Source of the DNA: a virus
Direction: 5' to 3' (one strand)
Length of the DNA stretch: 43,580 nucleotides
Virus record (IMG/VR): IMGVR_UViG_3300032676_000587
Location: 1-43,580 of that record
Position numbers and translations under genes: made by a program. Below are positions 9,101 to 16,938 of this stretch, piece by piece; the stretch's first letter is position 1, and each line of letters begins with the position of its first letter. The notes beneath the pieces were generated by a model. The model ran no database searches, was not told the DNA's origin, and saw only the letters and a list, made by a program, of their open reading frames with translations.

Positions 9101-9130
9101 AACTCAAAGGGGAATCGGCTTAGCGGCCCT

Positions 9131-9174
9131 GCCAGTGCTCACTCACTGGCTACCCACCAAATAACCAGTGAGGG
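9131..9174 (+). promoter_or_regulatory. Bistable leader RNA that can hide the ribosome site of the endoVII gene
   Basis: GCCAGTG (9131-9137) pairs with CACTGGC (9144-9150), loop CTCACT. The bases CTCACTGG (9142-9149) can instead pair with CCAGTGAG (9165-9172), which runs into the ribosome site GAGGG before the ATG at 9179. The two hairpins share the CACTGG arm and exclude each other; the second hides the Shine-Dalgarno. The loop CTCACT is also complementary to AGTGAG at 9167-9172, so a pseudoknot is a third option. Reads like a translational switch. Confidence 0.55.
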
Positions 9175-9178
9175 TTCC

Positions 9179-9580
9179 ATGAAGAAGTGCTCTAAATGCG
9201 ACGAAACACAGCCGCTTATCCAGTTTAGTAAAAGCAAAAACTCAAAAGACGGACTGCAAAGTTGGTGTCGTTCCTGTAAGAATCAAGACTACAAGGACAA
9301 CCGGGACAGACGCTTGGATAGAATGCGGATGAACAACTACGGCATTACTTCTGAAGAGTATCGCCAAAAGATAGCCGATCAAGGAAACGCCTGCGAGATT
9401 TGTAAGCTGCCGTTTGTGCCAGACAAAAACCCTTGCGTAGACCATGACCACACTACGTTGGCTGTGCGTGGAATACTTTGCACACACTGCAACTCCGGTT
9501 TGGGGCACTTTAAAGAATCACTAGAAAATTTAGAATCCGCCCAAGAATATATTAAAAAATATACTGCGCAAAATGACTGA
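9179..9580 (+). CDS. Recombination endonuclease VII-type HNH nuclease
   Basis: 133 residues. N-terminal zinc-like pairs (CSKC, then WCRSC) are followed by the endonuclease VII core: CEICKLPF, VDHDHTT, VRGILCTHCNSGLGHF. The family resolves branched DNA, including Holliday junctions, before packaging (T4 gp49), and related forms act as freestanding homing nucleases. The DNA is more AT-rich than the genes before it. Its ribosome site lies in a switch-like leader. Catalytic call good; resolvase versus homing role open. Confidence 0.85.
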   Translation: MKKCSKCDETQPLIQFSKSKNSKDGLQSWCRSCKNQDYKDNRDRRLDRMRMNNYGITSEEYRQKIADQGNACEICKLPFVPDKNPCVDHDHTTLAVRGILCTHCNSGLGHFKESLENLESAQEYIKKYTAQND

Positions 9581-11895: not shown

Positions 11896-12318
11896 ATGAA
11901 GTATTATGTATACCAACATGCTGATCCTGAAACCGGAGAGATTTTATATATCGGTAAAGGGTCTTACGAAAGGGCTTGGCTGTGCCGACGAAATAATAGG
12001 GATCCTGAATACACAAAGTATTTGAATCATTTTTTAGATAATGGATATACTTTATTTGACATTGTAACAATACTACATAAAGGGCTGACAAATACCGAAG
12101 CTGAAAATCTAGAATCTAAGTTAATTCAAAAGATACAACCCGTTTTTAATAAGCAACAAACAGAAAAATGGTCGTATCCTAAAAAGTTTTCTGAGGAAGT
12201 TGTTTCCATGGTAAAAGCTCTAAAACAAATGGGTTATGGTCCTCAAAATACAGCATGGATTATGGGTGGTGATAAAAACAAAAACGCAATGACTATGTGG
12301 AGAATGGTGAATGAGTAA
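11896..12318 (+). CDS. GIY-YIG endonuclease
   Basis: 140 residues. The N-terminal domain has YYVYQHA...EILYIGKGSYERAW (GIY and YIG motifs with the catalytic Arg) and ENLESKLIQKI (metal-binding Glu). The C-terminal 40 residues (KALKQMGYGPQNTAWIMGGD) look like a small DNA-binding unit. Such enzymes are usually homing endonucleases. It overlaps the ribonucleotide reductase gene by 8 bases; phage nrd genes are common homing targets. The DNA is AT-rich compared with both neighbours, which suggests later arrival. Confidence 0.85.
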   Translation: MKYYVYQHADPETGEILYIGKGSYERAWLCRRNNRDPEYTKYLNHFLDNGYTLFDIVTILHKGLTNTEAENLESKLIQKIQPVFNKQQTEKWSYPKKFSEEVVSMVKALKQMGYGPQNTAWIMGGDKNKNAMTMWRMVNE

Positions 12319-14497: not shown

Positions 14498-16432
14498 ATG
14501 ATTTACTCAATCGACTTTGAAACACGCAGCACCATTGACCTCACCGATCGTGGCCTTGATGTATACGCCAACGACCCCACAACAGAAGTGTTGTGTATTG
14601 CGTTCGGCACCCACCCCGAGACTGTTAAAGTCAAATCCCCACAAATTCCAGAAACCTCGGAGTTATGGCCTTTGATGAACCACGTCAGCAAAGGTGGCAA
14701 AATACAAGCATGGAACGCCATGTTCGAGTACGCCATCTGGAACTGCGTCTGTGTGCCCAAGTACGGCTGGCCACCACTAAAACTCGAGCAGTGCATTGAC
14801 TCTATGGCCATAGCAGCAGCCAATAACGTGCCGCAGTCTCTTGGCGATGCGGCTATCTTTATGGATAGCGCACATCAAAAAGACACCCGTGGCCGCTATT
14901 TGATCCAAAAGCTATGTAAGCCAACCAAGGGCGTATTTAACGAAGACCCTGAATTGATGCGTGAGTTGTTTGATTACTGCGCACAGGACGTACGCACAGA
15001 AATGTCGATTGTAGCCAATTTAAGGCCCCTATCAGCCGCGGAACAGGAAGTTTGGACCATGACCCAGCGGATCAATTTGAGAGGCGTACCGGTCGATCCT
15101 AAAGAGCTCCAGAACGCCGTAAAAGCAGTCCAAGGGGCACAGGCCCAACTAGACCATGAACTCGTCTCCTTGACCGGTTTTAAGCCCTCTGAGCGGGCTA
15201 AATTGCTGGGATGGTTAAATGCGCGGCTAAAGTGTATTGGGATGGCGCCAATGGAAGACATGACGGCAAAAACCGTTTCAGCTATGTTAGTGAACACTAA
15301 CTTAGATCCATTAGTAAGAAAGGCGTTAGAATTACGCCAAGAAGGAAGCCAAACTAGCGTGGCTAAGTACGCTAAAATGTTGGAGATACAACGTGAAGGA
15401 AGAATTAGGAATACATTGGTATATCATGGGGCTAGTACTGGCCGCTGGGCGAGCCGTGGGGGCCTTAATTTACAGAATATTGCAAGGCCCACGTTGGAAG
15501 ATGGAGAGATTGAATCTGCAATACCGAGAGTATTTGGTGAGGCAAGAGGCACAATGCAACAACTCACCAGTCTGGTCCGTAGCGCAATCGTTGCACCGCA
15601 CGGAAAAACCTTCGTTGACGTGGATTTTAGCTCAATTGAAAACCGAGTTGGCGTCTATTTGGCGGGGCAAAACGACAAAGTCGAACTCTTTAGAAAGGGA
15701 TTAGATGAGTACAAAGTATTCGCTTCACAAAGCCTTTACCACGTACCATACGATGCGGTCACGAAGGACCAACGCCAGATTAGCAAGTCTGCGGTCCTTG
15801 GTGCGATGTTTGGTCAGGGTGCTAAGGGGTTGGTTAAGTACGCTGAAGGAATGGGTGTAAAGCTCACGGAGTCGCAAGCCAAGAACGCAGTAGATAACTA
15901 CCGCAGTTCATACTCGAAAGTGAAAGCTCTTTGGGCAGCATGCGAAGCTGCGTCGATTGATGCAGTACAGAATCCCGGTACTGCGTTTGCTGCGGGTAGT
16001 AAGATTGTGCTAAAAGTTGCCAAGAATGCATTATGGATGAAACTTCCAAGCGGTCGTCTCATCTGCTGGCAGAGGCCAGAGCTCGAGTTGTTGCCAACTC
16101 CTTGGGGTTCTACTAAGCTGGGCGTCACAGTTCACAGCCTTAACACTTTTAGCAGGCAGTGGAGTAGAAACGCTTTGATTGGTAGTAGTATCTTTCAGTC
16201 CGCTGTACAGGGTACCGCTAGGGACTGTCTTGCCGTGGCTATGCTTAACCTTGAGCAAGCCGGTTATGAAATGATTAATCTGATCCACGACGAAATCCTT
16301 TTATTGGTAAAAGAAGAAAATTCGGAGGCCGTTTTGCAAGACGTCATAAAAATAATGACAACCCCGCCAACATGGGCTCCGGATTTTCCTTTAGCTGCAG
16401 AAGGATGGATCTCAAAAAGATACCGCAAATAG
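14498..16432 (+). CDS. Family A DNA polymerase with 3'-5' exonuclease
   Basis: 644 residues. The exonuclease domain begins at once with D6-F-E8-T. The polymerase domain has motif A VDFSSIENR (D376), motif B R426..K430SAVLGAMFG, and motif C HDE near 597. There is no 5'-3' exonuclease domain. In motif B the residue matching E. coli Pol I Phe762 is Leu434, and that matching Tyr766 is Phe438. Leu at this place is known from environmental viral polymerases and has been linked to slower copying. Replicates the phage genome with the helicase and ssDNA-binding protein. AAGGAG precedes the ATG. Confidence 0.95.
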   Translation: MIYSIDFETRSTIDLTDRGLDVYANDPTTEVLCIAFGTHPETVKVKSPQIPETSELWPLMNHVSKGGKIQAWNAMFEYAIWNCVCVPKYGWPPLKLEQCIDSMAIAAANNVPQSLGDAAIFMDSAHQKDTRGRYLIQKLCKPTKGVFNEDPELMRELFDYCAQDVRTEMSIVANLRPLSAAEQEVWTMTQRINLRGVPVDPKELQNAVKAVQGAQAQLDHELVSLTGFKPSERAKLLGWLNARLKCIGMAPMEDMTAKTVSAMLVNTNLDPLVRKALELRQEGSQTSVAKYAKMLEIQREGRIRNTLVYHGASTGRWASRGGLNLQNIARPTLEDGEIESAIPRVFGEARGTMQQLTSLVRSAIVAPHGKTFVDVDFSSIENRVGVYLAGQNDKVELFRKGLDEYKVFASQSLYHVPYDAVTKDQRQISKSAVLGAMFGQGAKGLVKYAEGMGVKLTESQAKNAVDNYRSSYSKVKALWAACEAASIDAVQNPGTAFAAGSKIVLKVAKNALWMKLPSGRLICWQRPELELLPTPWGSTKLGVTVHSLNTFSRQWSRNALIGSSIFQSAVQGTARDCLAVAMLNLEQAGYEMINLIHDEILLLVKEENSEAVLQDVIKIMTTPPTWAPDFPLAAEGWISKRYRK

Positions 16433-16451
16433 GGCATTTAGTTTCAAATAC

Positions 16452-16469
16452 GCGTATTAGTAAAAGTAG
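16452..16469 (+). promoter_or_regulatory. GCGTATTAGT promoter, copy 6
   Basis: CGCGTATTAGT, then AAAAG and TAG. GGGCATTTAGT begins exactly 20 bases upstream, straight after the polymerase TAG stop. The predicted start G at 16469 is the first base of the closing stem of the leader structure. Drives the HNH gene. Confidence 0.6.
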
Positions 16470-16547
16470 ATAGGGACAGCGTGTCGACAACGTTGTCTTA
16501 GCCTGAATCTAAGACTCACCTATCGCTTTCAAACTACTATTCAGGGG
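16469..16547 (+). promoter_or_regulatory. Four-way-junction leader RNA whose hairpin loop matches the ribosome site
   Basis: GATAGG (16469-16474) pairs with CCTATC (16519-16524). Between them lie three hairpins in direct succession: GACA-GCG-TGTC (16475-16485), GACAACGTTGTC (16486-16497) and CTTAG/CTAAG (16497-16513). The 7-base loop of the third, CCTGAAT (16502-16508), is fully complementary to ATTCAGG (16539-16545), which overlaps the Shine-Dalgarno AGGGG of the HNH gene. A pseudoknot or alternative stem would block translation. T4 homing nucleases are known to be held back by similar ribosome-site hairpins. Confidence 0.55.
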
Positions 16548-16554
16548 TATCAAA

Positions 16555-16938
16555 ATGCTATCTCAAAAAGAAAAGCAAAAAATACGTTCAAAAAAGCATC
16601 AAGATAAATTAATGTCAACCAAAGAGGGTTGTATAAAGCGAAGATTATTTGAAACTAAATATCGAGCCAAAAAGTTAAACTTAAAATTTGATTTAACACT
16701 AGAGGATTTACTATCTATTTTTCCAGATAAATGTCCAGTATTTAAAACCGAGTTATCTTGGGGGCACCAAACCGGAAAGATATTACCAACCAGCCCTTCT
16801 TTAGACCGAATTGACCCAAATAAAGGTTATGTAATGGGCAATGTTCAGTGGCTTTCTAATTTAGCAAACGCTATGAAAAACAAAGCTACAAAAGAACAAT
16901 TGAAACAGTTTGCTAATTGGATTACTGAAAGTCTTTAG
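16555..16938 (+). CDS. Freestanding HNH endonuclease
   Basis: 127 residues. FPDKCPVF, then SPSLDRIDPNKGYVMGNVQW and LSNLANAMKNKAT form the HNH-type core typical of small phage homing nucleases. The N-terminus is very basic. Strongly AT-rich compared with the polymerase gene before it, suggesting separate origin. It has its own promoter and a structured leader, and its last 17 bases overlap the end of the opposite-strand gene, so it is wedged exactly between the two arms. Confidence 0.85.
   Translation: MLSQKEKQKIRSKKHQDKLMSTKEGCIKRRLFETKYRAKKLNLKFDLTLEDLLSIFPDKCPVFKTELSWGHQTGKILPTSPSLDRIDPNKGYVMGNVQWLSNLANAMKNKATKEQLKQFANWITESL

Follow-up and report, generated by a model that had tools for sequence, protein, structure and literature searches.

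Freestanding homing endonucleases must be quiet enough to spare the phage that carries them, and to our knowledge the control of most of them is unknown. In the closest described systems, the T4-type leaders of I-TevI, I-TevII, I-TevIII, T4 segB and Aeromonas phage Aeh1 mobE, the Shine-Dalgarno (SD) sequence of the endonuclease gene lies in an RNA structure, and SD burial silences I-TevI and mobE (PMC2988022, PMC3014915). Likewise, the leader analysed here places the SD of a phage nuclease gene in an RNA structure: judged by its sequence, the downstream gene encodes a homing-type endonuclease, and burial of the SD is indicated by covariation.

The window, i.e., the whole stretch of DNA analysed (43,580 bases, a virus record from IMG/VR), contains this leader at positions 16469–16554 of the plus strand. 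It precedes a gene for a predicted HNH-type homing endonuclease of 127 aa (16555–16938, plus strand, ATG start codon at 16555), which matches phrog_3322 endonucleases (E 4.7e-33) and has no match in Pfam. Leader and gene are inserted 3' of the DNA polymerase A gene (14498–16432, plus strand; PF00476). Most of the 80 relatives found via the polymerase lack the insert, and in these the converging gene follows directly after the polymerase stop codon. A group I intron remnant was considered and rejected, because no space is left for an intron 3' half after the ORF; the HNH ORF extends into the end of the converging gene, and the polymerase ORF aligns right to its own end. Elsewhere in the window, a GIY-YIG-like gene (11896–12318; recognized by eye, weak match to phrog_5356) is flanked by genes for an ssDNA-binding protein and a B12-type ribonucleotide reductase and has no leader of the kind described below.

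Structure of the leader

Comparison of homologous leaders makes it nearly certain that the RNA adopts a three-way junction (helices P1, P2, and P3) combined with a kiss between the P3 loop and the SD. The closing helix P1, in which GATAGG (16469–16474) pairs with CCTATC (16519–16524), had been read correctly from the sequence in the initial annotation (10/10 paired, one double change). The four-way junction with three adjacent hairpins proposed there did not survive the comparison: GACAGCGT/ACGTTGTC form one covarying hairpin, P2 (16475–16482 with 16490–16497), whose column pair 14–27 occurs as CG, UA, AU, and GC. Already in the close homologue L001 a C-G pair of P2 is replaced by A-U, which contradicts the reading as two small hairpins. 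The latter have no double changes at all and are broken in some sequences, and forcing them costs about 4.6 kcal/mol (−12.5 vs −17.1).

P3 consists of TTAG (16498–16501), the loop CCTGAAT (16502–16508), and CTAA (16509–16512). As initially annotated, its loop is the exact complement of ATTCAGG (16539–16545), which overlaps the SD, AGGGG. The pseudoknot claimed on these grounds holds as far as the pairing is concerned; the SD, however, is not in an unpaired stretch but in the loop of a further hairpin, P4 (TACT 16535–16538, loop 16539–16545, GGTA 16546–16549; 93% of cells paired, double changes at two positions). Because P4 is a real hairpin whose stem changes as pairs among the leaders (TACT/AGTA, TATT/AATA, TATC/GATA, AACC/GGTT, AACT/AGTT), the interaction is a loop-loop kiss and not a simple H-type pseudoknot.

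The minimum free energy (MFE) of the window leader is unremarkable (z −1.7 to −1.9), and the case must therefore rest on comparison. In the class of leaders to which it belongs (class 1, see below), GUC has two GAC copies as alternative partners, which puts P2 and P3 in competition; the two competing forms of the window leader are equal in energy (−17.1 kcal/mol each), and its P3 can be extended to 7 bp if GTC is taken from P2. In most cases tested P4 by itself has about 0 kcal/mol and is unfolded at 37°C, and the 6–7-bp loop/SD duplexes yield −4 to −7 kcal/mol. Being too weak to fold alone, P4 must be held by the kiss.

Kissing pairs and their distribution

Leaders were gathered by pattern scans, one for the SD region and one for letters of P1 and P2 only, and by a covariance model (R1) that was built without the kiss and run over about 95 contigs. 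Model R1 recovered L180, L294, and L317, which were outside its training set, as well as new leaders. All 21 R1 matches in the main search (E ≤ 0.0073) have perfectly complementary loops, as do all leaders found via the P1/P2-letters-only pattern, which involved no selection on loops. Weaker R1 matches (E 0.02–0.1) lack complementary loops; those in T4-like contigs possess the SD hairpin only. Seven contigs with T4-like late promoter letters (TAAATA; L234, L239, L252, L256, L466, L468, L471) carry HNH- and GIY-YIG-like genes behind leaders in which P1 and an inner hairpin are combined with the SD hairpin ATACT-n7-AGTAT, and no loop is complementary to the SD loop. These leaders represent a related, simpler type that is seemingly present on the gene's own late transcript.

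In total, 23 distinct leaders of the kissing design were found in uncultured phage contigs. Among them are 18 different loop sequences (ten of 7 nt, eight of 6 nt), all perfectly complementary to their SD loops; L175, L492, L537, and a second leader in the window at 9109 were found by the descriptor defined below and hence selected for complementarity, while the others were found by patterns, one of which names part of the SD region, or by the model (by both for the second copy in L354). P3 loop and SD loop have the same length in every leader, either 7 or 6 nt. In two stitched alignments, comprising 15 leaders with 7-nt and 8 with 6-nt loops, the loop/SD pairs are 100% standard, with double compensatory changes at 6/7 and 5/6 kissing pairs, respectively; when the pairing is slid as a control, this drops to about 40%. 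An alignment of 10 leaders (A3) gave 100% paired positions for P1, 97.5% for P2, 100% for P3, 100% for the kiss, and 90% for P4, with four of the seven kissing pairs altered on both sides, and RNAalifold also draws the loop/SD helix unaided. Since P1 and part of P2 are near-invariant in class 1, they contribute little evidence there.

That such complementarity arose by chance in a single phage could be suspected from the weak MFE z-scores, but is refuted by the 18 different loops that are all matched and by a count with a descriptor. This descriptor demands a P3 of at least 4 bp with a loop of 6–8 nt, another hairpin whose loop holds the exact complement, an outer helix, an SD, and an ATG. It finds 15 places in 743 kb (window and related contigs), a density biased by the choice of some contigs for their model matches, compared to 0–3 (mean 1.1), the fair measure of chance, in ten dinucleotide shuffles. 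About 0.06 places would be expected in the window, where two are found. ORFs of at least 117 aa follow 13 of the 15 places; the remaining two precede 6-aa ORFs and look like chance. We thus regard coincidence as virtually excluded. The second leader of the window (9109–9178, plus strand), detected by the descriptor scan with its pairs counted, has the hairpins GCCAGTG-CTCACT-CACTGGC (P3, 9131–9150) and AACC-AGTGAG-GGTT (P4, 9163–9176), and 3' of it lies an endonuclease VII-type gene of 133 aa (9179–9580, plus strand; PF02945, E 1.1e-19).

Two junction classes with different conserved letters can be distinguished. Class 1 (GATAGGGACA ... GACTnACC) comprises the window leader at 16469 and those of L001, L286, L287, L333, L347, L348, L351, L353, L354, L452, and L461. 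Class 2 (P1-GAAAA-P2 ... P3-CTA-P1') comprises L180, L455, L457, L458, L462, L294, L175, L492, L537, and the window leader at 9109, and L317 is close to it. In the nearest orthologues of the HNH gene (L001–L003, 80% protein identity), hardly a letter of the leader has changed, while the DNA immediately upstream has diverged. Thus, none of the closest orthologues whose upstream DNA can be read keeps the gene and lacks both pairings, and the loop/SD pairing anticipated for related HNH leaders is kept in every homologous one. In the much diverged leader of the polymerase relative L180 (4458–4602), the pairing has changed on both sides, with loop CCATATT and SD loop AATATGG. The leader itself is intact, and the ORF behind it is a 19-aa stub, similar to the beginning of the L461 nuclease and, judging from its sequence, left over from a decayed or deleted nuclease gene.

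All 22 full ORFs 3' of the leaders look nuclease-like. The scanned ones match HNH of the phrog_3322 type (window, L286, L348, L353, L452, L457, L458, L461, L462), HNH with NUMOD3 (L347), GIY-YIG (L287, L317), T5orf172 (L333), and endonuclease VII (L294, window 9179); those of L175, L354b, L455, L492, and L537 were assessed solely by eye or have weak matches. Near-identical class 1 leaders precede unrelated nucleases (L347, L348, and L353; L333 vs the window), which argues that leaders and nucleases have been recombined. In L317 (2100–3050), the GIY-YIG cassette is inserted shortly after the start of another gene, and this start (MARTSLA/MSRTSLA) is repeated 3' of the cassette.

The leader is an option and not a necessity, because several relatives do without it. 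In L200 and L208, the insertion site after the polymerase stop codon holds related genes of the HNH type behind the same promoter-like motif, with no structured leader, and the kissing leader is also absent from the distant homologues of HTVC119P and S28-C10, which overlap the gene upstream of them. Six HNH relatives were likewise without one, as were eight named phages that carry nucleases; where the nuclease is a related one, named phages have a gene overlap instead of a leader. The model gave one weak match, in phage Bobbio (E 0.026), which is not a kissing leader. A BLAST search of the leader region against named phages gave no real match. Bacterial genome contigs contained 86 stretches of GATAGGGACA-n-ACCTATC, none of which passed the kissing descriptor as a class member, and a scan for CCTGAAT...CACC...ATTCAGG returned chance matches only.

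Predicted transcript start, probable translational control, and alternative explanations

Between the polymerase gene and the leader lies a promoter-like region (16433–16468, plus strand), in which GGGC is found about 20 nt upstream of GCGTATTAGT (16452–16461), followed by n5, TA, and then GATAGG. The window holds about 10 copies of GCGTATTAGT-n5-TA (plus strand: 5915, 7679, 9585, 11212, 14451, 16452; minus strand: 26342, 33156, 33722, 40420), mostly ahead of genes and often with GGGC about 20 nt upstream. A few bases 3' of one copy, a DUF2815 RNA (RF03084; 11234–11292) precedes a gp2.5-like ssDNA-binding gene; another DUF2815 RNA lies near the end of L294. No match was obtained for a T7-type RNA polymerase that might read the motif, and the control search was equally silent. 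Relatives carry altered versions of the motif (GCATTAATATG, GCATTAGTATA), and the L001 leader stands 3' of GCATTAATATG, the repeated motif of that phage. The distance from motif to P1 is constant in most class 1 and several class 2 leaders, and the motifs of both the window and L001 place the expected start at P1 or within a few bases of it. That the stem begins where the promoter predicts the transcript to start, as had been proposed, is supported by relatives whose leaders are equidistant from their own motifs; transcription from exactly 16469 is a plausible prediction. In several leaders P1 is two bases longer at its 5' side (TAGATAGG/CCTATCTA), and the start may accordingly lie slightly upstream of 16469.

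We consider it likely that the leader acts in cis as a translational lock on the nuclease gene. As the comparison shows, the P3 loop pairs with the whole 6- or 7-nt P4 loop; this would stabilize P4, which is too weak alone. The SD would be divided in this structure, with AGG in the kissing helix and the next bases in the P4 stem, and 30S ribosomes would be blocked from it, resulting in low nuclease output. Repression is suggested by the buried SD, in analogy to T4-type homing-endonuclease leaders; of the silencing of a freestanding nuclease through loop-to-SD pairing, as initially postulated, the structure is well supported by comparison and the mechanism plausible. The promoter probably sets the start at P1 or just 5' of it, and the full lock should hence be part of every transcript of the gene itself; it would then be a constant throttle or be opened by some factor. 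The lock would also be a movable module of nuclease cassettes from several unrelated families. A more far-reaching version, in which the leader is an independent kissing-loop switch that recombination exchanges among unrelated nuclease families and that a phage or host factor opens at a defined time during infection, is doubtful at present, at perhaps a one-in-four level of belief.

Other explanations differ in what the structure would do. The leader could tune expression or affect mRNA stability instead of repressing translation, and the related nucleases of L200 and L208, which lack it at the same site, speak against the repression reading. A riboswitch-like element, in which a ligand or protein bound by the junction opens or closes the kiss, would fit the near-invariant class 1 junction letters (GGGACA ... 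GACTnACC) and the competition of P2 and P3 in forms of equal energy; since the junction letters of the two classes differ, the junction may do more than hold P3. Yet class 2 achieves the same output with other letters (GAAAA ... CTA), so that no common pocket is visible, the length of P1 ranges between about 4 and about 14 bp, and the conservation within class 1 could stem from recent common ancestry, all of which makes sensing by the junction rather unlikely. Less credible still is a timing mechanism as described for I-TevI, I-TevII, I-TevIII, and segB (PMC2988022), with the lock on read-through transcripts only and escape of transcripts from the gene's own promoter, because P1 follows the promoter-like motif and own transcripts would contain the full structure. 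The close likeness of class 1 leaders before unrelated nucleases, as if recombined, might also point to a DNA-level element such as a recombination or homing site with an incidental RNA fold, but compensatory changes that couple the P3 loop with the SD and a fixed spacing to the start codon would be needless in a DNA site, and this explanation is highly improbable.

Relation to known RNA elements

No Rfam family reached the gathering score for the leaders tested (window, L317, L333, L294, L351), and a literature search, which lay mostly outside subscription papers and is hence no proof, found no description of a kissing leader. If the translational lock is real, a compact RNA that precedes genes of no fewer than five nuclease families would solve the control problem in a general way for this phage group; it would also constitute a new family of structured RNAs and a natural case of SD control via a pure loop-loop kiss. 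Tertiary or pseudoknot pairing in leaders controls initiation in preQ1 riboswitches, the S15 rpsO operator, and T4 gene 32, which respond to a ligand or protein. The leaders analysed here would be alike in controlling initiation by leader pairing, and differ in that two loops kiss 3' of a three-way junction. Fully paired kissing loops of 7 nt and 6 nt are known from ColE1 RNAI/RNAII and TAR/TAR*, respectively, where they form between molecules, whereas here loops of the same lengths pair fully within one leader and cover the SD.

The T4-type homing-endonuclease leaders remain the closest known systems, but in these a single stable hairpin buries the SD, while the kissing leaders need the remote P3 loop in addition to a P4 of about 0 kcal/mol. 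Moreover, the late promoter of I-TevI lies inside the hairpin, so that its own late transcript misses part of it, whereas the promoter-like motif of the kissing leaders, with its predicted start, stands before P1. Unlike the T4-type leaders, the kissing module is common to unrelated nuclease families. The kissing leader would thus act in the manner of the T4-type silencers, although two of the features that define them are absent.
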